64,000 nucleotides of DNA. Source: Methylocystis echinoides. GTDB taxonomy: Bacteria; Pseudomonadota; Alphaproteobacteria; Rhizobiales; Beijerinckiaceae. The stretch lies in contig NZ_CP156084.1 in assembly GCF_040687965.1 (NCBI RefSeq), forward strand, positions 1,006,501-1,070,500, read 5' to 3'. The position numbers were made by a program, and so were the translations under genes. A model generated the notes under the pieces. The model saw only the letters and a program-made list of their open reading frames with translations, had not been told where the DNA came from and searched no databases. Shown piece by piece: positions 12,925-33,385 of the stretch. Each line of letters opens with the position of its first letter. Within the stretch, counting starts at the first letter, position 1.

Positions 12925-14223
12925 TCCTTGCGGCGTCGGGATCAGAACGAGCGCCCCCACGCCGGCGCCGAGCGCCAGGATGGAAGCGAAGAGGAGCCGC
13001 AACCCCATCGCCGTCCCGCCCATGGCCCAGGCCATCGCCACCTTTGACAGGGTATTGCTCAGCACCGCGAGCAGAACGGTGAACGCCGCCGCCGTCCAGC
13101 CGACCTCCTGCTCGCCGTGCCGGGCCATCGACAGCGAAATGGCGTCGACGTCGGCGACGCCGGACACCAGCGCCAGGGCATAGGCCCCGGAGCTGCCGGC
13201 GAAGGTCGTGAGAATCTTGGAAAGGACCATCACTGCGGCGAGCAGCGCGCCGAATTTCAGCACCGCCGGCAAATCCAGCGGATTGGCGCCGGCCACGGGA
13301 TTGCCTTCGCGCTCGCCGGACGCCGCGCCGCGCCACATCAGAAAGCCGCCCGCCAGCAGATACACGACGCCGACGCCGATCAGCGGCGCCGCGAGACGCA
13401 GGCCGAAGGCCGGATTGACGACGCTTAGAATGGCGAGGACGCGCGGCCCCATGATCGCATTGGCGAAGAGGGCGCCGGCGGCCAGCACGCCCACGTCTTT
13501 GGGATTCTCGGCCGCCAGTCGCGCCATGGCCGCCGTGGTCGCCGTCGAGGAGGCGAGTCCGCCCGCCATGCCCGCGACGGCGATCCCGCGCCGGTAGCCG
13601 ACGATCTTCACAGCCACATAGCCACTAAAGGAGACGGCGGCGATCAGCACTGTCATGAGCCACAATTCGTGAGGATTGACCGCGCCCCAGCGGTCGATGG
13701 CGCGGTTCGGCAGGACGGGCAGCAGGATGAAGCTCATAACCAGCAGCACGAGCCCGGAGCGCAACTCCTCCCAGGTGAGTTTTTGCACCCATTCGTGCAG
13801 CAGCCCCTTCGCCGCCAGCAGGATCGTCGTCGCCACGGCGCCCGCCGCCGCCGCCACCTCATTTCCGACGACCGCCAAGGCCCCGAGCGCATATGCGAGC
13901 ATCATGGCGACGACTGAGGTCGCGCCGAACGTCTTGTCGTGCTCCGTCTCGCGATAGCGGAAGACGGCCATGGCGGCGCCGAAGAGCAGGAAGGAGAGAC
14001 CCAGCGCGACGACCCCGGCGTCATGCCAGAATTCCAGCGCCACCGCGCCCCAGACGCCGCCGAGCAGTGCGGCGAGGCCATGGGTGCGGACGCCAGCGGT
14101 GCGCTCGCCCTCCTGCTCGGCGCGCGCGTCCCATCCGCGCTCGAGGCCGATGAGCAGCCCGATGGCCAGCGCATAGGCAAGCCGCTGGATCAATGCGGCG
14201 GCGCCCAATTCATACATGTCCAA
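12919..14223 (-). CDS. MgtC/SapB and DUF4010 membrane protein
   Basis: A 434-residue multi-spanning inner-membrane protein. The N-terminal 140 residues match the MgtC/SapB module (RLAYALAIGLLIGLERGW, GVRTHGLAALLGG); the remainder (GLASSTATTAAMARLAAEN... and many hydrophobic stretches) matches DUF4010. Around a dozen membrane segments are likely. Proteins of this build are widespread but their substrate is unknown; magnesium transport should not be assumed. It is convergent with modC. Confidence 0.85.
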   Translation of the reverse strand: MDMYELGAAALIQRLAYALAIGLLIGLERGWDARAEQEGERTAGVRTHGLAALLGGVWGAVALEFWHDAGVVALGLSFLLFGAAMAVFRYRETEHDKTFGATSVVAMMLAYALGALAVVGNEVAAAAGAVATTILLAAKGLLHEWVQKLTWEELRSGLVLLVMSFILLPVLPNRAIDRWGAVNPHELWLMTVLIAAVSFSGYVAVKIVGYRRGIAVAGMAGGLASSTATTAAMARLAAENPKDVGVLAAGALFANAIMGPRVLAILSVVNPAFGLRLAAPLIGVGVVYLLAGGFLMWRGAASGEREGNPVAGANPLDLPAVLKFGALLAAVMVLSKILTTFAGSSGAYALALVSGVADVDAISLSMARHGEQEVGWTAAAFTVLLAVLSNTLSKVAMAWAMGGTAMGLRLLFASILALGAGVGALVLIPTPQGL

Positions 14224-14364: not shown

Positions 14365-15534
14365 ATGTCGCGCCTGCGTCCCTCCCGCCGATCCGCCGTC
14401 GCGCCCTTCATGGCGATGGAGACGTTGCGCGACGCGCGGCGCCTGGAGCGCGCGGGCCGGCGCATCATCCATATGGAGCTTGGCGAACCCGGGGCCCCGG
14501 TTCCCCGGCTCGCGCGCGCCGCCGCCGAGGCGGCCCTCGCCTCCGGACGGCTCGGCTATGGCGAGGCGATGGGCGAGGCGGCGCTTCGGGCGCGCATCGC
14601 GCGCCATTACCAGACGCGCTACGGCGTCGAGGTCCCGCCCGACCGGGTGATCGTGACGACCGGCTCTTCTGGCGCCTTCATGCTGACGCTGCTCGCCGCC
14701 TTCGATCCCGGCGCGCGCATCGCCGTCACGGCGCCGGGTTATCCTGCTTACGCCAATCTTCTCTCCTCGCTCGGCCTAGAAGCCGCGCCGCTGCCGGTCG
14801 ACGCAGCGACCCGTTTCGCGCCCACGGCCGCCATACTGGAGGCGGCGCATCGCGAAAAGCCGCTCGACGGCGCGCTGCTGATGAGCCCGGCCAACCCCAC
14901 GGGCGCCATGATCGACGCCGGGGAGCTCGCCCGTATCTGCGCCTACTGCGAGGCGGCGGGGATCGTCTTCATTTCAGATGAAATCTACCACGGGCTCGAA
15001 TATGCGGTCCCCGCCGAGACGGCGCTGCGCTTTTCAAAAAGCGCCATTGTCGTCAATTCCTTCTCCAAATATTACGCAATGACCGGCTGGCGGCTCGGAT
15101 GGCTCGTCGCGCCCGAAGAACTCATGCGGCCGCTCGAGCGCTTGCAGCAATCGCTCGCCATCTGCGCCCCGACGATTTCGCAACATGCGGCGCTCGCCGT
15201 TTTCGACGCTACTGACGAACTGGAGGAGAACCGCGCGGCCTATGCGCGCAATCGGGCCTTGCTCATGGCGCGGCTGCCGCAGATGGGCCTCGACCGCTTC
15301 GCGCCGCCGGACGGCGCCTTTTACATCTACGCCGATGTGTCCGCCTTCACCGGCGACTCGATGGCGTTTTGCAGACGGATGCTGGCGGAGGCGGGGGTCG
15401 CGGCGACCCCCGGCCTCGATTTCGATCCGCAGCGCGGCGCGACAAAGGCGCGCTTCTCCTATGCCGGTTCGGAAGCGGAAGTCGCCGAAGGCGTCGCGCG
15501 GCTCGCAGCCTGGCTGCCGCAGGCGCGTCTTTAG
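14365..15534 (+). CDS. Class I/II pyridoxal-phosphate aminotransferase
   Basis: A fold-type I aminotransferase of 389 residues. The Schiff-base lysine is Lys235 in SFSKYYAMTGWRLGW; SPANPTG and FISDEIYHG provide the cofactor-binding Asn and Asp. Substrate specificity cannot be read from the sequence; the overall pattern is closest to aspartate/alanine-type aminotransferases. AAAGG lies about 10 bases before the ATG. No pathway neighbour: a divergent membrane-protein gene lies upstream and the convergent rne gene downstream. Confidence 0.88.
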   Translation: MSRLRPSRRSAVAPFMAMETLRDARRLERAGRRIIHMELGEPGAPVPRLARAAAEAALASGRLGYGEAMGEAALRARIARHYQTRYGVEVPPDRVIVTTGSSGAFMLTLLAAFDPGARIAVTAPGYPAYANLLSSLGLEAAPLPVDAATRFAPTAAILEAAHREKPLDGALLMSPANPTGAMIDAGELARICAYCEAAGIVFISDEIYHGLEYAVPAETALRFSKSAIVVNSFSKYYAMTGWRLGWLVAPEELMRPLERLQQSLAICAPTISQHAALAVFDATDELEENRAAYARNRALLMARLPQMGLDRFAPPDGAFYIYADVSAFTGDSMAFCRRMLAEAGVAATPGLDFDPQRGATKARFSYAGSEAEVAEGVARLAAWLPQARL

Positions 15535-15545
15535 CCAGTCCCTGC

Positions 15546-15570
15546 CCCTCCCCCGCTTCGCGGGAGAGGG
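15546..15570. terminator. Hairpin between aminotransferase and rne 3' ends
   Basis: A near-perfect inverted repeat of about 11 bp per arm around TTC in the 74-base gap between two convergent genes, with no T-run on either side. It may end transcription from both sides or simply be one of the GC-rich palindromes scattered in this genome. Confidence 0.4.
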
Positions 15571-15608
15571 AATCTCGAGGTTTCGCGTGTTTCCAGTGAA
15601 CGTCCGGC

Positions 15609-18593
15609 CTATTCGTTGAACGGCCCGCGGACGCGCTGCCACCATCCGCCCTTCTTCGGGGTCTTCGGATCGGCCGCGGTGATGACGACCTGGGTCGGCT
15701 CGCGCGGGGTCGTCGGCTGTTCGGCCGGCGTTTCTGGCGCAGCGGCCGCCGGCGCGGCGTCGGGAGCGGGGCCCGCCTCCGGGACGACGGCTTCGGCGGC
15801 AGGCGGGATTTCCGCCTCCGCCGCGGCGGGCGTCGCCGCCGTTGCGACCGTCGCCGGCGCTTCGGCGGCCGGGGCCTCGGGAGCCGCGGCCTCGAGCGCA
15901 GGCGTCACGATTTGCGGCGCGGGGGCGAAGTCGGGCATATGCGCCTCCCGCGGCGAGACGAAAGCTTCCGCCTCGCCCCCGTCGAGCGGGAAGAGCGCGG
16001 AGGGATCGCGGAACTCGTCCGGCAGAGGCGCCGACCGGCGCCAGCGGCCCGGACCGCGCCCCCGCCCGACGCGGGGTTCGCGGGGTTCGCGGGGCTCGCG
16101 CGGGGCCGGCGCGCCCTCGATCTCGGCCATCAGCGCGAGGCCCTCGTCGGACGGCTGCTCGGCGCCGGGCGCGAAAACCTCGCCACTGCCGTTGGCGCCG
16201 CCGCGGCCGCGACGACGACGGCGACGCCGCCCGCGCGGCGCGCCCTCCTCGCCCTCTTCGCCCGCGAAGCGGCGATCGCGACGCCCTTCGGCGCGCTCCT
16301 CCTCGGCTCCGTCGGCGGCGGCCTCTTCCTCCGCCAGCGCCTCCTCTTCGAGGATCTCTTCCTCAAGCGGTTCGGCGCGCAGCGAATCGACGCGCAGCGG
16401 CGCGGGCGCGGTCGGGACGCGCGGCCCGCTCGCAAGTTCGCCGCGCTCCAACGCGTGGTAATTGGCGCCCGTCAGAGTATCGTCGGCGGCGACGGTGATA
16501 TGCACGCCGAAGCGGCTCTCCAGCGAATGCAGATGCGCGCGCTTCTGGTTGAGGATGTAGAGCGCGACCGCGCCGCGGGTGCGCAGCGTCACGTCATGCG
16601 CCGCGCTCTTGATCAGCGCCTCCTCCAGCACGCGCAGCACATGCAATGCGATCGAGGCGGTGGAGCGGACATGTCCCGCGCCCGCGCAATGCGGACAGGG
16701 AACCGTCGACCCCTCGACGACGCCCGCGCGGATGCGCTGGCGCGACATTTCGAGAAGGCCGAAATGCGAGATGCGGCCGACCTGAATGCGGGCCCGGTCG
16801 TTTTTCAGCGCGTCCTTGAGCCGGCGCTCGACGGCGCGATTGTTGCGGCTCTCCTCCATGTCGATGAAATCGACCACGATCAGGCCGGCGAGGTCGCGCA
16901 GGCGCAGCTGGCGGGCGACTTCGTCCGCCGCCTCGAGATTGGTGCGCAGCGCCGTGTCCTCGATATTGTGCTCGCGCGTCGACCGGCCCGAGTTCACGTC
17001 GATCGCGACGAGCGCCTCGGTCTGGTTGATCACCAGATAGCCGCCGGATTTCAGCGTGACGTGATTGGAGAACATGGCGTCGAGCTGCGCCTCGACCCCC
17101 GCCTCGGCGAAGATCGGGTAGGGCTCGCGGTGCTGCTTCACGTTCTTGGCATGGCTCGGCATGAGCATGCGCATGAAGTCCTTGGCCTCGCGATAGGCCT
17201 CGTCGCCCGAGACCACGATCTCCTCGACGTCGCGGCCATAAAGGTCGCGGATGGCGCGCTTGATCAGCGAGCCTTCCTCATAGACGAGCGTCGGCGCGCT
17301 GGAGCGCAGCGTCAGTTCGCGCACGCTTTCCCACAGCCGCAGCAGATATTCGAAGTCGCGCTTGACCTCGGCCTTTGTGCGCGTGGCGCCCGCGGTGCGC
17401 AGGATGACGCCCATCCCCTCGGGCACTTCGAGGTCGTGAACGATTTCCTTGAGGCGCTTGCGATCTGCGCCGTCGGTGATCTTGCGGGAGATGCCGCCGC
17501 CGCGCGCGGTGTTGGGCATCAGCACCGAATAGCGGCCGGCGAGCGACAGATAGGTCGTCAGCGCCGCGCCTTTATTGCCGCGCTCTTCCTTCACGACCTG
17601 AACGAGCAGCACCTGACGGCGCTTGATGACTTCCTGGATCTTGTACTGGCGGCGGGGACGCACGACCCTGAACGGGGCCTCGTCCATGGCGTCGCCGCCG
17701 ATGTGCTCGACGTGTTCTTCCTCGTCGTGCTCCTCGTCGTCGTGGTCCTCGTCAGCCGGCGCCCGCGGCGCGCGGGCCTCGAGCCCCTCGCCCGCGCTGG
17801 CCAATTCTTCGCCCTCGTCGGCCGCCTCTTCAGCTTCGTCGCGGGCGCGCTCGCGCTCCTCGTCGCGCTCGTCCTGGCGACGCGCCTTCAATTCGTGGTC
17901 CGGCTCCGGGATCGCCTCGGCGAACTCCTCGGCGGCGCCCTCCTCGACGGAGCCGAAGCCCGCCGGATCGACGGAAATGGTGTGATGTCCTTCGTCGGGC
18001 TCAATGATCCCGACGGCTTCCACGGCCTCGACCGCCTCGGCCTCGACCTCGACGTCGGTCGGGGCCTCGGCCTCTTCCGGGCGCGGCTCGTCCTCGGCGG
18101 CGGCGACGACGGATTCGGCGGCCGTCTCCTCGCTGGCCGGCTGGTCGTCTCCGGCCGCCTCGATCAGCGCTTCGACGTCGACGGCCTCGCTGACCAGCGT
18201 CTCATCGGCGCCGGCGCGCTTCTCGGCGGCCTCGGGTTGACGGCGGCGGGAGCGGCGACGGCCGTGCGGACGATGCGGCTGCTCCTCTTCCTCGTCCTGG
18301 CGATGGGCGCGGCTCTCTTCTTCCAGCAGCGCCTGACGGTCGGCGACGGGGATCTGATAATAGTCCGGGTGGATTTCCGCGAAGGCCAGAAAGCCGTGGC
18401 GGTTGCCGCCGTAATCGACGAAGGCGGCCTGCAGCGAGGGCTCGACCCGCGTCACCTTCGCCAGGTAAATATTGCCGCGCAGCGGTTTCTTGTCGGCGGC
18501 CTCGAAGTCGAATTCCTGAACGCGGTTACCGCGCAGCACCACCACCCGGGTTTCCTCCGGGTGGGAGGCGTCGATCAGCATCTTGTTTGCCAT
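15609..18593 (-). CDS. rne: Ribonuclease E
   Basis: Endoribonuclease E of the RNA degradosome, cutting single-stranded AU-rich sites in mRNA and rRNA precursors. 994 residues. It starts MANKMLIDASHPEETRVVV, and the S1 RNA-binding domain (residues about 35-85) is interrupted by a very acidic, low-complexity insertion (about 93-320) before resuming at RRQYKIQEVIKRRQ. The 5'-sensor and DNase I-like domains follow, with DFIDMEE containing catalytic acids, and the zinc-link CPHCAGAGH. The C-terminal 250 residues are Arg-, Pro- and Ala-rich, as in degradosome scaffold tails. Both the S1 insertion and the disordered tail are typical of alphaproteobacterial enzymes. Confidence 0.95.
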   Translation of the reverse strand: MANKMLIDASHPEETRVVVLRGNRVQEFDFEAADKKPLRGNIYLAKVTRVEPSLQAAFVDYGGNRHGFLAFAEIHPDYYQIPVADRQALLEEESRAHRQDEEEEQPHRPHGRRRSRRRQPEAAEKRAGADETLVSEAVDVEALIEAAGDDQPASEETAAESVVAAAEDEPRPEEAEAPTDVEVEAEAVEAVEAVGIIEPDEGHHTISVDPAGFGSVEEGAAEEFAEAIPEPDHELKARRQDERDEERERARDEAEEAADEGEELASAGEGLEARAPRAPADEDHDDEEHDEEEHVEHIGGDAMDEAPFRVVRPRRQYKIQEVIKRRQVLLVQVVKEERGNKGAALTTYLSLAGRYSVLMPNTARGGGISRKITDGADRKRLKEIVHDLEVPEGMGVILRTAGATRTKAEVKRDFEYLLRLWESVRELTLRSSAPTLVYEEGSLIKRAIRDLYGRDVEEIVVSGDEAYREAKDFMRMLMPSHAKNVKQHREPYPIFAEAGVEAQLDAMFSNHVTLKSGGYLVINQTEALVAIDVNSGRSTREHNIEDTALRTNLEAADEVARQLRLRDLAGLIVVDFIDMEESRNNRAVERRLKDALKNDRARIQVGRISHFGLLEMSRQRIRAGVVEGSTVPCPHCAGAGHVRSTASIALHVLRVLEEALIKSAAHDVTLRTRGAVALYILNQKRAHLHSLESRFGVHITVAADDTLTGANYHALERGELASGPRVPTAPAPLRVDSLRAEPLEEEILEEEALAEEEAAADGAEEERAEGRRDRRFAGEEGEEGAPRGRRRRRRRGRGGANGSGEVFAPGAEQPSDEGLALMAEIEGAPAPREPREPREPRVGRGRGPGRWRRSAPLPDEFRDPSALFPLDGGEAEAFVSPREAHMPDFAPAPQIVTPALEAAAPEAPAAEAPATVATAATPAAAEAEIPPAAEAVVPEAGPAPDAAPAAAAPETPAEQPTTPREPTQVVITAADPKTPKKGGWWQRVRGPFNE

Positions 18594-24136: not shown

Positions 24137-24808
24137 CTATTCCCCCAAATTCCGCAGCGCCGCCGCGGCCGCGAAGGGACAGAGCGCCAGCGCCGCGAGG
24201 CTGATCGCGCAGAGGATCGCAAAGGGCGACAGGAAGGGAACCGCGCCGCCCGTCGCCGCCTCCGACGCGGAGACGCCGAAAATCAGCACGGGGATTGTCA
24301 GCGGCAGCACCAGCAGCGCCATGAGCAGGCCGCCCCGGCGCACCGTGACCGTCGCCGCCGCGCCGATCGCGCCGACGAGGGTCAGCGCCGGCGTGCCGAC
24401 GAAGAGCGTCGCCACGACGCCGGCGAGCGCCATGGGCTCCTGCTGGAGCATGAGGCCGAGGAAGGGCGCGGCGATGATGAGCGGCAGGCCCGTCGCCGCC
24501 CAATGGGCCGCGCATTTGATGAGCACCGCGACTTCGAGCGGCGTGTCGGAAAGATGCAGCAAGTCGAGCGAGCCGTCCTCGGCGTCGGCCTGGAACAGCC
24601 GGTCGAAGGCCAGAAGGCTCGCGAGCAGCGCCGCGATCCACAGGATCGCCGGGCCGATGCGCGACAGCAGGTTCGGGTCCGGGCCCACCGCGAAGGGCAC
24701 GATGACGACGAGCGTGAGGAAAAACACGACGCCCATCGCTCCCGAGCCGCCGACGCGCCGCGCGATGCGCCATTCGCGCAGGAAAAGGGCGGAAAGCGGG
24801 GCCGTCAC
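24137..24808 (-). CDS. ccmB: Heme exporter protein CcmB
   Basis: Membrane subunit of the CcmAB ABC transporter, which powers release of heme-loaded CcmE during cytochrome c maturation. 223 residues with about six membrane segments; FLTLVVIVPFAVGPDPNLLSRI and DRLFQADAEDGSLDLL are family signatures. Its start overlaps the end of ccmA by four bases (translational coupling). CcmC and CcmD genes, often next, are absent: the following gene is on the other strand. Confidence 0.93.
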   Translation of the reverse strand: MTAPLSALFLREWRIARRVGGSGAMGVVFFLTLVVIVPFAVGPDPNLLSRIGPAILWIAALLASLLAFDRLFQADAEDGSLDLLHLSDTPLEVAVLIKCAAHWAATGLPLIIAAPFLGLMLQQEPMALAGVVATLFVGTPALTLVGAIGAAATVTVRRGGLLMALLVLPLTIPVLIFGVSASEAATGGAVPFLSPFAILCAISLAALALCPFAAAAALRNLGE

Positions 24809-25467
24809 TGTGGGGCCCCGAGCGCCAGTTCGCCGGCCTCCTCGAGCCCGAGCGGCTCATGGGTCGCCGCGACGATCAGGCCGCCAAGCGCGCAATGCGC
24901 GCGCATGGCCGCTGCGAATTTTTCCCGCGAGCCGCGGTCGAGCGCCGTCAGCGGCTCGTCGAGAAGCCACAGCGGCCGGAAGGCGACGAGCAGCCGCGCC
25001 AGCGCCGCGCGCCGCTTCTGCCCGGCGGACAGCGCCCCGAAAGGCGCGTCGAGCGCATGCGAGAGCCCGACCGCGGCGAGCGCCTCGGCGACCGGACGGC
25101 TGCGGCGATCTTCCGCCCGCCCCAGATAATTCCCCCAGAAATCAAGGTTCTCCCGCACCGTGAGCGCCGCCTTCATGCCATCGGCATGGGCGAGGTAATG
25201 CGTCGCCTGGGCGAGCTCCTGGTCTTCCCCGGCCCCTTCGAGCGCGACCGTTCCGCCCGAATGCGGGAGCAGGCCGGCGATCGCCCGCAAAAGCGTGGAT
25301 TTGCCGACGCCATTGCGGCCCGTCACGACAAGCGCCTCGCCCCCCGAGAGCAAGAAATTCACGCCCGAGAGCACGGGCCGGCCCCCCCGGGCGACGGCCA
25401 GATTCTCGACCTTGAGCCGCGGGACGGTCTGGCGGTCGGCGTGGGGGCGATGCGGGCTTGTCTCCAT
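24805..25467 (-). CDS. ccmA: Heme exporter ATP-binding protein CcmA
   Basis: ATPase of the CcmAB complex. 220 residues, a minimal ABC domain: Walker A TGRNGVGKST, signature LSAGQKRR, Walker B LWLLDEPLTALD and switch His in VAATHEPLG. The start METSPHRPHADRQ at 25467 gives a normal-length protein; the frame is open further upstream to 25644 but that part is Arg/Pro-rich and does not resemble the family. Operon with ccmB; the serine palmitoyltransferase-like gene starts divergently about 180 bases away. Confidence 0.92.
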   Translation of the reverse strand: METSPHRPHADRQTVPRLKVENLAVARGGRPVLSGVNFLLSGGEALVVTGRNGVGKSTLLRAIAGLLPHSGGTVALEGAGEDQELAQATHYLAHADGMKAALTVRENLDFWGNYLGRAEDRRSRPVAEALAAVGLSHALDAPFGALSAGQKRRAALARLLVAFRPLWLLDEPLTALDRGSREKFAAAMRAHCALGGLIVAATHEPLGLEEAGELALGAPQ

Positions 25468-25642
25468 GGCGAAAGCCAATAGAGAAAGCCGCGCCAAAGC
25501 GCCATAGGCGCCGCCATGGCGTCCGTTTCCCCGACGCCAGGCTCCCCGGAACACAGGCGCACTGGCGCGCGGGGGCCCGGAGTGATAAGGGACGCGATCA
25601 CTCCAGGGCGCCTTCAGCGGCGCTTTTGATTCTTCGCGAAAC

Positions 25643-26929
25643 ATGTGCGCGCGGCGCGCCAGGCCATTAGGGACTGCGAATTCAGTGACGAGACACAGAA
25701 GCCTCTCGGATTACGCGTCGCGGCGATTCCGCCTTGCCGGCAACGCTCTCCTCGAATTCAACAATCCGTTCTTCGCCCAGATCGACAAGCTGAAAGCGGA
25801 CTTCGAGGCCCAGGGGATTCATTTCGTCAGTTTCGCGAATTACGACTATCTCGGCCTCGCCAACCATCCGCGCATCCGCGAGGCGGCGAAGCAGGAGGTC
25901 GACCATCTCGGCATTGGCGCGCTCGCGTCGCGGCTCGTCGGCGGCGAGCGCACCACGCACAAGCAGTTCGAGGCGGAGATCGCCAAATTCATCGGCATGG
26001 AGAGCGCGCTGGCGCTCGTCTCCGGCTACCTCGCCAATGTCACGACCATCGCCTATCTGATGAACGGCAAGCGCGACGCCATCTTCATCGACGAGCTCGC
26101 GCATAACAGCATCGTCTACGGCGCCGAGGGCGCGCCGGCGCATGTCGTGAAGTTCCGACACAACGACATGGATCATCTCGAGCATCTGCTGGCGCGGCAT
26201 CGCGAGGAGTATCGCAATGTCCTCGTCGTGGTCGAGGGCGTCTACAGCATGGACGGCGACACCGCCGACCTGCCGCGCCTCTATGCGATCAAGGACAAAT
26301 ACAAGATCTGGCTCATGGTCGACGAAGCGCATTCGCTCGGCGTCCTCGGCGAGACGGGCCGCGGCCTCGCCGAGCATCAGGGCGTCGATCCGCAGCGAAT
26401 CGATCTTCTCGTCGGCACCTTGTCGAAGAGCCTCGCCTCCTGCGGCGGCTATGTCTGCGCCAAGAAGGAGGTGATCGAATGGTTCCGCTTCACCCTGCCG
26501 GGCTTCGTCTACAGCGTCGGCTTTTCGCCGGTCGTCCTCACCGCGGCGCGCACCGCCCTCGCACTCATGCAGGAAGAGACCTGGCGCATCGACAAGCTCG
26601 CCCAAAACGCTGAGCTGTTCCGTCAGGTCGCGCATGAAAACGGCTTCTCCACCGGGCCCGCCATCGGGCGCGGCGTGGTGCCGATTCTCTTCGACAGCGA
26701 TCTCGAAACCATGTGGGCCGCGCGTCACCTTCTGGAGAAGGGATATTACGTGCCGCCGGTCGTGCGCATCGGCGTGCCCAAGGACGGGCCGCGGCTGCGC
26801 TTCTTCTTCTCGGCCAACCATACAGAGGCCGAAATTCGCGGCGTGATCCAGGCGCTGCGCGAGATCCCGCCCGTCTCGGAAGAGGCGCAGCGCATCGTCG
26901 CCGCCGCCATGTCGGGCGCCGCGGCTTGA
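25643..26929 (+). CDS. spt: Serine palmitoyltransferase-like alpha-oxoamine synthase
   Basis: PLP enzyme expected to condense serine with a fatty acyl thioester to 3-ketosphinganine, the first step of sphingolipid synthesis. 428 residues. YDYLGLANHPRI, GIGALASRLVGG, VEGVYSMDGD, VDEAHSLG and TLSKSLASCGGY (Schiff-base Lys262) are the marks of the alpha-oxoamine synthase family, which also includes KBL, BioF and HemA. Assignment to serine palmitoyltransferase rests on similarity to bacterial Spt in the YSMxGD/DEAHS regions and above all on the ceramide-type genes downstream. The start is unsure: the ATG at 25643 has no ribosome site, and GTG at 25685 would shorten the protein by 14 residues. No acyl carrier protein gene is adjacent, unlike Caulobacter. 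Confidence 0.78.
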   Translation: MCARRARPLGTANSVTRHRSLSDYASRRFRLAGNALLEFNNPFFAQIDKLKADFEAQGIHFVSFANYDYLGLANHPRIREAAKQEVDHLGIGALASRLVGGERTTHKQFEAEIAKFIGMESALALVSGYLANVTTIAYLMNGKRDAIFIDELAHNSIVYGAEGAPAHVVKFRHNDMDHLEHLLARHREEYRNVLVVVEGVYSMDGDTADLPRLYAIKDKYKIWLMVDEAHSLGVLGETGRGLAEHQGVDPQRIDLLVGTLSKSLASCGGYVCAKKEVIEWFRFTLPGFVYSVGFSPVVLTAARTALALMQEETWRIDKLAQNAELFRQVAHENGFSTGPAIGRGVVPILFDSDLETMWAARHLLEKGYYVPPVVRIGVPKDGPRLRFFFSANHTEAEIRGVIQALREIPPVSEEAQRIVAAAMSGAAA

Positions 26930-27031
26930 TCCCGGCGCGCGCCGCCGGGCAGTGTCTCAGTTTGATTTTGCCCCGGTTGAGTCGTGATGAGATTTACATC
27001 CCCGCTGTAAGTGGGCGAGCGGCGCATAACG

Positions 27032-27080
27032 CCCCTCGTGCTTCGAGACGCAAGCTTCGCTCGCTCCTCAGCATGAGGGG
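27032..27080. repeat. REP-like palindromic element
   Basis: A GC-rich palindromic element bounded by CCCCTCGTGCTTCGAGACG and ending GAGGGG; one of several related copies (27117, 30241, 30437, about 55600). Here it lies between spt and the GNAT-like gene. Confidence 0.65.
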
Positions 27081-27116
27081 CTCCTGCAATGAAAGACTTT
27101 TTTACAAAGACTTAGG

Positions 27117-27161
27117 CCTCATCCTGAGGAGCCCGCGCAGCGGGCGTTTCGAAGGACGAGG
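27117..27161. repeat. REP-like palindromic element
   Basis: A second copy, 37 bases after the previous one and in opposite orientation, running from CCTCATCCTGAGGAGCCCGC to GAAGGACGAGG, with an inner GCCCGC/GCGGGC stem. The two copies could form a long cruciform or a transcript-processing structure inside the putative operon. Confidence 0.7.
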
Positions 27162-27318
27162 CCGCCTCGCAGATAAGAGGACAAACGCCCCAAAAAGCCT
27201 CGCCCTCATTGCTGGGTCCCTGAAGTTCTTCGTCTCAAAATTCAAACCGAAACGCTACCCGCCGCCGCGTCATCTTGACGCTTTGTCGCTGACCCTTTGC
27301 AGAGTAGGACTTTGGGAC

Positions 27319-28470
27319 ATGGCGCGAATCGAGATCGTTCCAGTTTCCGGGCTTTCGCAATTTCTAGCCTTTTGCAGGCTGCCGCGCCTTCTCTATAAGG
27401 GCGCGCCGGGCTTTGCCCCGCCGCTCGACGTCGAGCGCTGGACGCTGTTCGCGCATTTCCTCAACCCGCATTACAAGCTCGTCGAGGATCAGAAATTCCT
27501 CGCCCGCCGCGACGGCGAATGGGTCGGCCGCATCTCGGCGCATGTCTATAAGACCGGGATCACGCCCGTCGGCGCGAGCCCCGCGCAATTCGGCGCGCTC
27601 GACGCGATCGATGACCCCGAGGTCGTGCGGGCGCTGACCGAAGCCGCCGAGGCCTGGCTCAAGGCGAAGGGCGCGACCCGGATCAACGGCCCGTTCTCGC
27701 CGACGATCAACGGCGAATGCGGCCTGCTGGTCGAGGGCTTCGAAGCGACGCCCATGATCTTCATGCCCTGGCATCCGCCCTATCTCTCGCGCCATCTGGA
27801 GGCGCTGGGCTATGGCAAGGCCAAGGACCTCCTCTCCTATCGCTTCGCCATCGAAGAGACCCTGCTCAACGAAAAGCCGCGCATCACCAGCCGCAAGGAA
27901 TGGCGCGATCGGCTGACGCTGCGCCCGCTCGACAAGAGCAAGCTCAAGACCGGCGAGACCGCGCTGATGGAGGAACTGTTCAACGACGGCTGGAGCGGCA
28001 ACTGGGGCTTCGTGCCCTTCACCAAGGCCGAATTCGACTCGACGGCCGACGCGCTCAACCTCGTCATGCCGCCCGAATTCGGCATCGTCGCCGAGCTCGA
28101 CGGCAAGCCGCAGTCCTTCGTCATCGCGCTGCCAAATCTCTTCGAGATCGTCGCCGACTTCGACGGCAGGCTGTTGCCCTTCGGCCTGCCCAAACTGATT
28201 TCGCGCATGCGCAATCACAAGTTCAACGCCGCGCGCATCGTTCTCCTCGGCACGCGCAAGGCCTTGCAGAACAGCGCCACCGGCGGCGCCATACTGCTCG
28301 GGATGATCGAGGAAATGCGCCGGCGCGGGGCCTCCGCCTCGATCAAGCATCTGGAGGCGGGCTGGGTGCTCGAGGACAATATGGCGATGCGCCGGCCAAT
28401 CGAGATGTTCGGCGGGAAGGTCGACAAGGTTCACCGCATTTATGAGAAGCAATTCGGAGCATCGCCATGA
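27319..28470 (+). CDS. GNAT-like N-acyltransferase, candidate bacterial ceramide synthase
   Basis: 383 residues without membrane segments or signal peptide. The N-terminus (FLAFCRLPRLLYKGAPGFAPP, then FLARRDGEWVGRISAHV) is the pattern of a GNAT-related acyltransferase family; I recall bacterial ceramide synthase (bCerS) of Caulobacter as having this kind of fold. The expected job would be N-acylation of the sphingoid base with acyl-CoA. Support comes from context: its stop overlaps the desaturase start (ATGA), so it is coupled to a sphingolipid-type gene. Residue-level proof is lacking, and relatives are often annotated only as hypothetical N-acetyltransferases. It follows spt after a 389-base gap carrying two palindromic repeats. 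Confidence 0.6.
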   Translation: MARIEIVPVSGLSQFLAFCRLPRLLYKGAPGFAPPLDVERWTLFAHFLNPHYKLVEDQKFLARRDGEWVGRISAHVYKTGITPVGASPAQFGALDAIDDPEVVRALTEAAEAWLKAKGATRINGPFSPTINGECGLLVEGFEATPMIFMPWHPPYLSRHLEALGYGKAKDLLSYRFAIEETLLNEKPRITSRKEWRDRLTLRPLDKSKLKTGETALMEELFNDGWSGNWGFVPFTKAEFDSTADALNLVMPPEFGIVAELDGKPQSFVIALPNLFEIVADFDGRLLPFGLPKLISRMRNHKFNAARIVLLGTRKALQNSATGGAILLGMIEEMRRRGASASIKHLEAGWVLEDNMAMRRPIEMFGGKVDKVHRIYEKQFGASP

Positions 28471-29462
28471 ACGGCATTTCGGTCACCGCCCAGGGCGCCG
28501 ACCGCTCGCATGTCGAGCGCCGCCGGCAGATCCTCGAGAAATATCCGCAGGTGCGCGCGCTTTTCGGGCGTGACCCGGTCACCTTCAAAATCACCGCCGG
28601 CATCTTTCTCGGCCAGTTTCTCATCGCCGCCTGGCTCGGCTGGCTCGGTCTCTCCTATTGGTGGCTGTCGCTGATCCTGGCTATTTGCGTCGGCGCCTTC
28701 GCCAATCACGCCAATTTCGTCATCATCCACGACGCGATCCACAATTGCGTGTTCGAAAGCCCTCTCGCCAATAAATGGACGGCGATCCTTGCCGATCTGC
28801 CCAACGCCTTCCCGACCGCGATGGGCTTTCGTTGCTACCACATCAAGCACCATTCGCATCTCTCGGCCTATGACTACGACGCCGACATCCCGAGCCATTG
28901 GGAAGTGGAATGGGTCGGCGACAGCGCCTGGCGCAAGGCGGCGTGGCTGTTCGGCTTCCCCGCGATCCAGCTCGCGCGCCTGTCGCGATTGAAGGGAACC
29001 GTGCCGATCATGGGCAAATGGACCTATATCAACATCGCGGTCATCATCGCCTTCGATCTTTTTATTCTCTGGGCCTTCGGCCCCAACGCGCTGCTCTATC
29101 TGTTCCTGTCCTTCTGGTTTTCGGTCGGCGGGCTGCATCCCTTGAGCGCGCGCTGGCTTCAGGAGCATTTCGCCTTCGGCCCCGACCAGGGAACCTTCGA
29201 CTATTATGGGCCGCTGAACAAACTGGCGCTCAATATCGGCTATCACAACGAGCACCATGATTTTCACGAAATTCCATGGACGCGGTTGCCCGAGTTGAAG
29301 GCGATGGCGCCGGAGTTCTATGACACGTTGCGGTGCCACCGCTCCTGGGTGGCGCTGCTCGTCACCTTCATCTTCGACCCGACCTATTCGCTCGGCACGC
29401 GCTCCGAAAATGTCGCGCAGGCGGCGGAGCGGGACGCCACGGTCGCCGCGGCGGCGGAGTAA
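28467..29462 (+). CDS. DEGS-type sphingolipid delta-4 desaturase
   Basis: A membrane di-iron desaturase of 331 residues. The His boxes are HDAIH (88-92), HIKHH (125-129) and HNEHH (260-264), plus His224 in GLHPLS. The sequence follows animal dihydroceramide desaturase DES1 over its whole length: RRRQILEKYP near the N-terminus (the DES1/lipid desaturase N-terminal motif), GLHPLSARWLQEH, YYGPLN and NIGYHNEHHDF all match what I know of human DEGS1. The likely reaction is insertion of a trans-4 double bond into the sphingoid base of a dihydroceramide; hydroxylation is an alternative for this family. About four membrane helices. It overlaps the acyltransferase gene by four bases, and the hydroxylase gene follows after six. 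Confidence 0.85.
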   Translation: MNGISVTAQGADRSHVERRRQILEKYPQVRALFGRDPVTFKITAGIFLGQFLIAAWLGWLGLSYWWLSLILAICVGAFANHANFVIIHDAIHNCVFESPLANKWTAILADLPNAFPTAMGFRCYHIKHHSHLSAYDYDADIPSHWEVEWVGDSAWRKAAWLFGFPAIQLARLSRLKGTVPIMGKWTYINIAVIIAFDLFILWAFGPNALLYLFLSFWFSVGGLHPLSARWLQEHFAFGPDQGTFDYYGPLNKLALNIGYHNEHHDFHEIPWTRLPELKAMAPEFYDTLRCHRSWVALLVTFIFDPTYSLGTRSENVAQAAERDATVAAAAE

Positions 29463-29468
29463 GTTAAC

Positions 29469-30116
29469 ATGGCCCAGGACATCAGAACCGAAGCGCTCGA
29501 CGCCTCGCCCCGCCTCTTCGAAAACGACCTGCTCGACAAGCTCTCGCGCGTGCATCACCTCACGCCGGTCATCGTCTACACGCCGATCATTCTGGGGCTC
29601 GTCTTTTATTCGCTGTCGTCGATGGGGATCGGACTGCTGCTGCTCGGACTCGTCATCGGCTACGTCGCCTGGACGCTGACCGAATATTTCGGCCACCGCT
29701 ATCTGTTTCACACGGTGTTTCCGCTGCCGTTCGGGCTCGGGCCGCGGTTCCAGTTCCTGATCCACGGCGTACATCACATCTATCCGAACGACCCGCTGCG
29801 GCTCGTGATGCCCCCGCTCCTGTCGGGGCCGATCATGCTCATCGCACTTGCGATCACCCGCCTCTTGTTCGGCGCGACCTTCGCCTGGCCGGTGCTCGCG
29901 GGCTTCATGGCCGGCTATGTCGCTTATGATTGCGTGCATTACTGGACGCATCACAGCCAGCCGACCTCCGACTTCGGAAAATTGGTGAAGCGGCTGCACA
30001 TGCTGCATCATTTCCGCGACGCGGAGAAAGGCTTCGGCGTGCACGCGATCTGGTGGGATTACGTGTTCGGCACGGCCTACAAGAAGGACGACACGCCGGG
30101 CGCGAAGGCGGTGTGA
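29469..30116 (+). CDS. FA2H-type fatty acid/sphingolipid hydroxylase
   Basis: A 215-residue di-iron membrane hydroxylase. HRYLFH (76-81), HGVHH (99-103), HYWTHH (157-162), HMLHH (177-181) and FGVH near 192 give the full His set of the fatty acid 2-hydroxylase/Scs7 family; RLVMPP and YDCVHYWTH are close to human FA2H. The cytochrome b5 domain found at the N-terminus of the eukaryotic enzymes is absent, so electrons must come from another protein. The likely product is a 2-hydroxylated acyl chain of a ceramide-like lipid. It starts six bases after the desaturase stop, making a tight three-gene unit with the acyltransferase and desaturase. Four or so membrane segments. Confidence 0.83.
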   Translation: MAQDIRTEALDASPRLFENDLLDKLSRVHHLTPVIVYTPIILGLVFYSLSSMGIGLLLLGLVIGYVAWTLTEYFGHRYLFHTVFPLPFGLGPRFQFLIHGVHHIYPNDPLRLVMPPLLSGPIMLIALAITRLLFGATFAWPVLAGFMAGYVAYDCVHYWTHHSQPTSDFGKLVKRLHMLHHFRDAEKGFGVHAIWWDYVFGTAYKKDDTPGAKAV

Positions 30117-30240
30117 GCATCTCCCCCACCGACCCCGCTTCGCGGGGCCTCCTTTCGCCTAAAGGGATCGCCTTTTGCCGCGCCTCGGACTGCTTGTCGA
30201 AGCTGCGCTATCAACATCGCACTCCAAGGACCCTCATCCT

Positions 30241-30368
30241 GAGGAGCCCGCGTAGCGGGCGTCTCGAAGGATGAGGAGCCCGCGTAGCGGGCGTCTCGAA
30301 GGATGAGGAGCCCGCGTAGCGGGCGTCTCGAAGGATGAGGAGCCCGCGTAGCGGGCGTCTCGAAGGAC
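30241..30368. repeat. Four tandem copies of a 32-bp REP-derived unit
   Basis: Four head-to-tail units of 32 bases starting at 30241, 30273, 30305 and 30337, identical except that the last ends in AC in place of AT. Each contains the inner palindrome GCCCGCGTAGCGGGC. The flanks (CCTCATCCT before, ACGAGG after) show that the array grew from a single dispersed palindromic element by tandem amplification. Confidence 0.9.
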
Positions 30369-30436
30369 GAGGGGCCGGATGGACCGGCGGCATGCTCTCG
30401 GCAAGCGGCCCCGCAGTTCGCCGGCCGGCGCGCAGC

Positions 30437-30481
30437 CCTCGTCCTTCGAGACGCCGCCTTTGGCGGCTCCTCAGGATGAGG
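30437..30481. repeat. REP-like palindromic element, inverted relative to the tandem array
   Basis: A 45-base element from CCTCGTCCTTCGAGACGCC to TCAGGATGAGG with an inner GCCGCC/GGCGGC stem, opposite in orientation to the array 68 bases upstream. Together they close the sphingolipid-type cluster and may act as a transcription end. Confidence 0.75.
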
Positions 30482-30647
30482 ACTGCTAGTGTAGGGTCAG
30501 GACCTATTAATTTTGGCGGCGGGCGCCATCTGCATCGCAGCCGCCGTCGCCTTCTATCTCAATCAATGAGTCCTGAGCCTAGCTTCCGCCCACGCCGGTG
30601 TGATACCTAACATGCGAGGAGAAACCCTGTAAGGAACTGGGGCTGCG
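30482..30647. other. Stretch between palindromic repeats and the His-rich gene
   Basis: Noncoding, with the less GC-rich segment near 30500-30560 (CTATTAATTTTGG, CTATCTCAATCAATGAG). It probably carries the promoter of the His-rich protein gene; nothing is recognised with confidence. The 531-base gap as a whole is mainly repeats. Confidence 0.35.
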
Positions 30648-30929
30648 ATGCTGAGAGCGATTATCTGTTTAGGTTGCGGATTAATGTCGCTGGGAACCGC
30701 GCGAGCGCAGTATGTAAATCCGATGGTGCAGCACCAAGTCATAAACCCAACAGTTCTCGCCCCTTCAGCCCGTCATGCCTTGCCACAAGGGCACGTGAGG
30801 GTTGTCCCTCCGGGCAAGCAGAATGGTGTGCGGCACTCGCGCCCTCACGCACATCATCCATGGCACCATGCCGTCCCTCATCATCGAAGCCATCACCACG
30901 TGACCCCCTTCATTACCACTCATCCGTGA
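30648..30929 (+). CDS. Small secreted histidine-rich protein
   Basis: 93 residues with a signal peptide (MLRAIICLGCGLMSLGTARA, cleavage near 20). The mature protein has 15 His, of which 11 lie within residues 63-84 in clusters such as HAHH, HH and HHH, suggesting metal binding (Ni, Cu, Zn or Co). I do not recognise a family. AAGGA lies about 15 bases before the ATG, a weak fit. It lies about 530 bases after the hydroxylase gene and is not part of an obvious operon. An overlapping frame from 30674 lacks a signal peptide and is less likely to be real. Confidence 0.5.
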   Translation: MLRAIICLGCGLMSLGTARAQYVNPMVQHQVINPTVLAPSARHALPQGHVRVVPPGKQNGVRHSRPHAHHPWHHAVPHHRSHHHVTPFITTHP

Positions 30930-31147
30930 AGGCGATGCGCGCGGCCGCCTTGCAGAGCTTCTCCAGCCTGTCCCCGTTCGACGCCGTGCCTAACTCCACG
31001 TCTGCAAAGTCGCCGCAAACATGGTCGGTCTGACCGTCCACAACGATGAACCGCACGACCGCACGCTGACACAAGACGGGGGCGCCAAGCTAGAGGCGAG
31101 CCGTATCCTTCCTTCCCTGCGAAGCGCGCCGAGTAGGGTCCAGAGCG

Positions 31148-33385
<2,238 letters not shown>

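Follow-up and report, generated by a model that had tools for sequence, protein, structure and literature searches.

A conserved four-gene run in Methylocystis echinoides is the probable core of a route to bacterial sphingolipids tailored by eukaryote-type enzymes

Can a bacterium encode, in one compact run of genes, both the enzymes that build a ceramide and a desaturase and a hydroxylase of the types that tailor this lipid in eukaryotes? This question is raised by the window analyzed here, a stretch of 64,000 nucleotides from the 4.35 Mb genome of Methylocystis echinoides (contig NZ_CP156084.1, positions 1,006,501 to 1,070,500). Four consecutive same-strand genes at 25643-30116 had been read in an initial annotation as a ceramide-type lipid cassette whose last three members are tightly coupled, a layout that we confirm from the open reading frames (ORFs). 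In order, the genes are assigned to a serine palmitoyltransferase-like synthase (Spt), a GNAT-fold N-acyltransferase (GNAT), a DES-type sphingolipid desaturase (DES) and an FA2H-type hydroxylase (FAH). Judged by sequence comparison, structure models and gene neighborhood, this cassette very probably supplies the central steps of (glyco)sphingolipid synthesis in a bacterium and tailors the product with eukaryote-type enzymes, and it is a variant of bacterial sphingolipid synthesis rather than a new kind of system.

The neighborhood of the four genes is conserved across the genus. We compared 101 genomes, consisting of relatives and the strain's own genome, 39 of which belong to its genus (g1, of the Methylocystis/Methylosinus type) and 22 others to the same family; below, L labels denote locus stretches and G labels genomes, G000 being the own genome. 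The GNAT gene was found in 55 of the 101 genomes, including 38 of the 39 in g1, and the order Spt-GNAT-DES-FAH is present in 37 of these 38, the contig of the last one (L018) ending inside DES. The survey of related genomes that the initial annotation had called for thus finds the four-gene order again, both within g1 and in two further genera of its family, and because of this recurrence the neighborhood cannot be put down to chance. Among the 22 other family genomes, all four genes occur in L031 and L032, Spt-GNAT-DES in L033 and L034, and Spt-GNAT in L036; in G060 (L042), an Spt (56%) is accompanied at 0.9 kb by a less similar GNAT (38%). At L061 (5615-6753, G013), GNAT is matched as two overlapping pieces, as from a frameshift or an assembly error.

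A survey made from the desaturase outward covered 80 named loci, the best of at least 531 confirmed DES relatives, with partner genes sought within 6 kb of DES. The first 38 loci (L068-L105) are labeled Methylocystaceae, Beijerinckiaceae and kin, or bear broader proteobacterial names, and include named strains of Methylocystis, Methylosinus, Methylocapsa, Methylocella and Beijerinckia. Spt, GNAT and FAH all lie within this distance in 22 of the 38, Spt and GNAT without FAH in 14, and the stretches L082 and L100 start at DES. The remaining 42 loci were examined alike. They include 28 labeled Verrucomicrobia, Spartobacteria, Udaeobacter, Chthoniobacterales or, in one case, Acidobacteria, and in 17 of these 28 DES, FAH, Spt and GNAT lie within 6 kb on one strand, in another order. 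The other 11 comprise five loci with Spt and FAH and four with FAH alone, in all nine of which the contig ends 0.4-3.3 kb after DES, as well as L132, whose contig stops 335 bases past DES, and L134, where Spt is present, GNAT lies 7 kb away and no FAH was found. The Acidobacteria-labeled locus (L117) may be mis-binned, since its Spt pairs with a Verrucomicrobial Spt (support 100/99 in the tree described below). Further linkages occur in G439, which belongs to another alphaproteobacterial family and in which FAH-GNAT faces DES near genes for LptF, LptG, a ketosynthase and a GT2 glycosyltransferase (L066, C7:107000-125000), and on an Acidisoma plasmid, where GNAT, a short-chain dehydrogenase/reductase (SDR), Spt and FAH stand together. 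G439 also carries a second DES-type gene (L065, C2:50000-69000), in whose 19-kb stretch none of the other three cassette proteins finds a match.

Some of the Verrucomicrobial runs contain additional lipid genes. In L107, CDP-alcohol phosphatidyltransferases are encoded at 13245-14180 and 15333-16037, inside and after the DES-FAH-Spt-GNAT run; one of the two genes lies between Spt and GNAT, and similar-looking ORFs, judged by sequence, occupy that place in L110, L117, L130 and L141. The position of these genes in and after the L107 run suggests that the Verrucomicrobial product bears a phospho-head group instead of a sugar.

The assignment of each cassette protein was examined separately. We placed the synthase in a tree of 50 proteins that included four KBL (all annotated as glycine C-acetyltransferase), three BioF, two ALAS and three paralogues from the own genome. 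It groups with the Spt of canonical ceramide clusters and of Verrucomicrobia (branch support 96/89), and the KBL, BioF and ALAS rows and the three paralogues all fall across the branch from it. The Spt-like identity proposed for this gene therefore holds, and a KBL or BioF identity is rejected by the tree, despite bioF being the top NCBIfam score; the grouping with KBL or BioF that would have spoken against the initial annotation did not appear. The protein scores below the cut-offs of the NCBIfam Spt equivalogs (295 of 500, 287 of 640 and 209 of 670 bits) and is only 31-34% identical to five canonical Spt; on this comparison, it is best described as part of a divergent clade of bacterial Spt.

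Taken alone, the window GNAT has no match in Pfam, NCBIfam or the PDB; Acetyltransf_1 is matched at E 0.1 or less in 16 of 26 members of its family (best 3.3e-14), the window protein itself remaining without a match. Its AlphaFold model (mean pLDDT 87.9) finds tandem GNAT structures as best matches (E 3.5e-13), and the family alignment (A4, with the L134 GNAT omitted and the ends of L095 and L107 set at stop codons) gives six marginal matches to PDB profiles (E 0.13-0.84), of which three are named acetyltransferases. Of six canonical Spt stretches, five (L174, L175, L177, L178 and L179) have homologues of the window GNAT with 35-41% identity (194-265 bits) 4-8 kb from Spt, at the cerS position, which refers to Caulobacter-type clusters and not to CC_1154 itself; the sixth, L176, has no GNAT homologue near Spt. 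Each of the five has LptF/LptG-like genes, 20-31% identical to those of L066, in the interval between Spt and GNAT, and the Caulobacter sphingolipid region likewise has such genes (PMC11324152, excerpt). The acyl carrier protein (ACP) gene adjoins Spt in L174, L176, L177 and L178, and also in L039, a stretch of the genome to which L179 belongs. The ORFs preceding the ACP gene in L174 and L176 resemble acyl-ACP synthetase and CerR by sequence. The acyltransferase assignment of the initial annotation is thus upheld by the GNAT fold and by the homology to the cerS-position gene. At L050 (G094:C1:1323000-1340000), an Spt-like gene and an adjacent GNAT of 31% identity lie beside an ORF of 2117 codons that resembles a polyketide synthase by sequence, possibly a polyketide-derived sphingoid system.

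The desaturase scores above cut-off with both PF00487 (81.1 bits) and PF08557, the sphingolipid delta-4-desaturase family (36.2 bits), and the latter match bears out the assignment to the DES type. Both families are matched at E 0.001 by all 26 sequences of the structure alignment A5 (rows L080, L086, L102 and L146 omitted, end of L089 corrected), in which the histidine boxes H88/H92, H125/H128/H129 and H260/H263/H264 are invariant. In these domains and its three histidine boxes the window protein resembles eukaryotic DES1/DES2; unlike them it is bacterial and operon-encoded, in a genome where no cytochrome b5 was found. PF08557 occurs in 2 of 385 genomes sampled across the class, the own genome and G439, which suggests that beyond this family DES is rare in Alphaproteobacteria. 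The DES alignment had no match among PDB profiles, and a scan of viral_contigs gave no relative. According to the excerpt of PMC12724326, the desaturases of this pathway are absent from bacteria in general, and in the open-licence literature, covered mostly through titles and abstract openings, we found no report that places a DES homologue in an operon for bacterial sphingolipids. The own genome has a second gene of the FA_desaturase family (G000:C1:2161980-2162771, L060; 86 bits) without a PF08557 match, which possibly resembles the Caulobacter acyl hydroxylase CC_0202; acyl hydroxylation in Caulobacter is attributed to a DesA-family protein (PMC11324152, excerpt).

The hydroxylase exceeds the cut-off of PF04116 (59 bits), and in the PDB it matches, at E 0.1, two Scs7 sequences and nothing else (E 7.7e-25 for yeast Scs7, and 1.6e-24). 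It keeps the RLVMPP stretch of Scs7, and its histidines 76, 81, 99, 102 and 103 align with Scs7 H244, 249, 268, 271 and 272, and 157, 161, 177, 180 and 181 with H326, 330, 345, 348 and 349, ten residues that we take to be metal ligands. The Scs7 match and these conserved histidines sustain the FA2H-like identity. At 215 aa, the protein has no match to the N-terminal cytochrome b5 domain (PF00173), a domain that plant FA2H also lacks. Since functional FA2H-like enzymes occur in myxobacteria (PMC10002949, excerpt), the FA2H-type part has a bacterial precedent. Like Scs7/FA2H and the myxobacterial homologues, the window hydroxylase shows Scs7 similarity and the histidine positions, and it differs from them in standing in one run with spt, a cerS-type gene and DES and in its missing b5 domain.

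Which genes might complete the route? The initial annotation was right that the ceramide reductase CerR and a dedicated ACP are absent from the cassette; no ACP was found in the whole window with four ACP queries at E 0.1, and an ACP and an SDR sit in a second operon. This minus-strand run (G000:C1:978821-984695) lies 47-53 kb upstream, its ACP about 47 kb from spt, and encodes the ACP, a ketosynthase, a 128-aa protein without Pfam match, a MaoC-type protein, the SDR, a GT21 and a GT2. With the Spt-adjacent SDR of Acidisoma as query, the second-operon SDR (G000:C1:981335-982072) is the lone outlier in the own genome (129 bits, next 55). It has the GxxxGxG and YxxxK motifs, as defined in the excerpt of PMC9278070, which say little because they are common to SDRs. 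An orthologue scoring 295 bits or more is present in all 38 GNAT-bearing g1 genomes, and in G022, which is without GNAT, a search at E 1e-30 did not find the SDR either. Elsewhere in the family, the matches above 250 bits come from G041, G045, G054 and G058, all GNAT-bearing, and G047, which has Spt-GNAT-DES, reaches 186 bits. Parts of the two gene sets are close to each other in some genomes, other Beijerinckiaceae among them: in G058, Spt-GNAT-DES stands tail to tail with homologues of the ACP, ketosynthase, SDR and GT2 that have two small genes between them, in G054 the SDR is about 3 kb from the cassette, and 13 of the 38 loci L068-L105 (from the best 80 of at least 531) contain an SDR match above 90 bits.

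We found no CerR orthologue in the own genome. The CerR query from L176 gave 56.5 bits there, 58.9 in G037 and 60.7 in G058, against 305 bits for the orthologue in G139 (the L174/L176 pair) and 731 bits for itself in G439; the scores in the own genome, G037 and G058 amount to background. The second-operon GT21 resembles the GT21 ceramide glucosyltransferases and HpnI in matching PF13506 far above cut-off (146.7 bits, cut-off 21.7) and is unlike them in missing the HpnI cut-off (151 of 310 bits), and in Methylocapsa acidiphila (L089) a GT21 gene lies directly 3' of DES. A second GT21-like gene in the own genome (G000:C1:2293802-2294911) scores slightly higher with HpnI (172.6 bits, cut-off 310) and may serve either hopanoids or ceramide. 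An HpnI identity of the second-operon gene is thus below cut-off, yet left open by the higher score of this second gene, and for both reasons the assignment of the GT21 to ceramide rests on its context.

Together, the cassette and the second operon would provide the following route. Spt would join serine to an acyl thioester, the second-operon SDR would reduce the 3-keto group in the cytosol, replacing CerR, and GNAT, by its homology to genes at the cerS position, would N-acylate the base. The DES-type enzyme would then introduce either a C4 hydroxyl or a double bond between C4 and C5, and the N-acyl chain would be 2-hydroxylated by the FA2H-type enzyme, both sites being predicted from the enzyme family. 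The second operon would furnish the reductase as well as the acyl chains and the sugars of the head group, with the GT21 acting on ceramide, and the product would be a (2-hydroxy)ceramide or a glycosylceramide. Because the SDR is taken to be a cytosolic ketosphinganine reductase, the reaction order is probably reduction, then acylation, as in eukaryotes; the Caulobacter model has a periplasmic CerR (PMC11087976, excerpt). The eukaryotic order, with reduction first, has also been proposed for Bacteroides BT_0972 (PMC9278070, excerpt), a bacterial precedent that resembles the SDR studied here by its GxxxGxG and YxxxK motifs but, in that excerpt, is not clustered with Spt.

Compared with the Caulobacter-type genes (aasR, cerR, acpR, spt and a separate cerS), the window has a homologous Spt and GNAT, and an FAH-like gene adjoins GNAT in three f80 genomes with such clusters (L174, L177 and L178). 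The differences are that the own genome has no CerR orthologue that we could find, that DES is added, that the ACP sits in the second operon, and that the cerS-type gene of the window follows spt on the same strand. The excerpt of PMC11324152 has bacterial cerS always in an operon apart from the de novo genes; the cassette contradicts this, provided that GNAT is CerS and that its four genes form a single operon.

The coordinates of the cassette and of nearby repeats are collected in Table 1. GNAT and DES overlap by 4 bases (ATGA, 28467-28470), and 6 bases (29463-29468) separate DES from the hydroxylase gene. An alternative Spt start, GTG at 25685, is close to the starts picked by our script for many relatives. 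The spacing between Spt and GNAT is 389 bases in the window strain and 68 bases in its closest relatives, L002 and L003; because of this difference and of the palindromic repeats inside, the longer gap looks like a repeat insertion. The repeats belong to a family of about 45 bases, GAGGAGCCCGCGNAGCGGGCGTYTCGAAGGAYGAG, that flanks the GNAT-DES-FAH block on both sides, and the pattern has 5 mismatch-free matches in the window vs 0 in 100 shuffles; an Rfam search of 24700-31200 gave no match. The upstream neighbor, on the opposite strand, scores as ccmA, and the downstream neighbor has domains of NAD-dependent DNA ligase.

Table 1 Cassette genes and palindromic repeats, in window positions.
Feature	Position	Strand	Basis
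Spt-type alpha-oxoamine synthase (serine palmitoyltransferase-like), 428 aa	25643-26929	+	ORF, tree with bacterial Spt
GNAT-fold N-acyltransferase, CerS/bCerS family	27319-28470	+	homologues at cerS position, tandem-GNAT model
DES-type sphingolipid desaturase (delta-4 desaturase and/or C4 hydroxylase)	28467-29462	+	PF00487, PF08557, His boxes
FA2H/Scs7-type fatty acid (ceramide) hydroxylase, 215 aa, no cytochrome b5 domain	29469-30116	+	PF04116, Scs7 match
Inverted pair of palindromic repeats in Spt-GNAT gap	27034-27161	.	pattern matches
Further copies of the same palindromic repeat, four in tandem, 32-base spacing	30232-30481	.	pattern matches

The reading of the cassette as a sphingolipid pathway core is supported by the conserved gene order and the linkages in Verrucomicrobia, G439 and Acidisoma, by the Spt tree, the GNAT at the cerS place, the DES model, the Scs7 match and the lack of a CerR orthologue, and by the second operon, the co-occurrence of SDR and GNAT and the GT21 after DES in L089. 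Several observations weigh against it. The Spt-like protein misses every NCBIfam equivalog cut-off (best bioF, 345 of 426 bits needed), and the structure model of DES has weak Foldseek matches in the PDB (best E 9e-4, next SCD1 at 0.40), which we did not use. In the DES survey, Spt, GNAT and FAH are found within 6 kb in none of the 13 Bacteroidetes loci, several of which have short flanks; since these and Phreatobacter L145 are without partners at that distance, the link does not extend to DES homologues at large, and DES-type enzymes may have other substrates. Cytochrome b5 is the redox partner of these oxygenases in eukaryotes; no match to its domain was found in five genomes including the own one, which speaks against it in this role and makes it probable that the electron donor of both oxygenases differs from the eukaryotic one. 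As for the second-operon SDR, it is only 35% identical to the Acidisoma SDR, and genomes without GNAT also give matches, with lower scores (G046 176, G070 198 and G072 194 bits).

That the SDR shares its operon with an ACP, a ketosynthase and a MaoC-type protein counts on the same side, and it is quite conceivable that the SDR serves a dedicated fatty-acid module as its beta-ketoacyl-ACP reductase, another enzyme reducing the 3-keto group; its best solved-structure matches are general SDRs, several of them named ketoacyl-ACP reductases. Against this alternative stand its lone-outlier score with the Acidisoma query and the position of that distant homologue directly 5' of Spt on the Acidisoma plasmid, where no ketosynthase is present among the 23 annotated features of a 25-kb stretch. 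For the desaturase, most characterized members of the DES family are desaturases, as the Pfam name likewise has it, which counts against a C4 hydroxylase (DES2-like) whose product would be a phytoceramide and not a sphingosine-type ceramide. Nothing in the sequence favors C4 hydroxylation by the window DES, and we regard this alternative as rather unlikely, keeping in mind that the sequence models used cannot tell delta-4 desaturation from C4 hydroxylation and that the family includes the bifunctional DEGS2 (PMC10140171, excerpt).

The lack of an NCBIfam Spt call and the low identity to canonical Spt would also fit a synthase that takes another amino acid, with the tailoring enzymes acting on some other N-acylated amino-ketone or amino-alcohol lipid. 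This is improbable, as the Spt tree, the CerS/DES/FA2H-type linkage in two phyla and the GT21 all point to ceramide. Least credible of all is a chance neighborhood of unrelated membrane-lipid genes, for which the 389-base gap between Spt and GNAT might be cited; the genus-wide conserved order and the linkage re-formed in another phylum contradict it.

With the cassette read as a ceramide pathway core, gene order links the DES and FA2H types to Spt and a CerS-type gene, both in methanotrophs that are in culture and in Verrucomicrobia, and to a GT21 in methanotrophs. We tentatively propose, as a possibility of wider reach, that type II methanotrophs and, with another gene order, soil Verrucomicrobia use operons to make eukaryote-type tailored sphingolipids, 4,5-unsaturated, 2-hydroxylated and, in methanotrophs, glycosylated, and follow the eukaryotic reaction order in doing so. 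The finding makes testable in isolates whether bacteria form sphingosine-type bases, where the eukaryotic tailoring enzymes originated, and whether reduction precedes N-acylation, a point debated in PMC11087976 (excerpt). If the proposal is true, the genes for tailoring by DES and FA2H would form an ancient set in bacteria, eukaryotes need not have invented the delta-4 double bond of sphingosine, and these products could be a lipid marker for type II methanotrophs.

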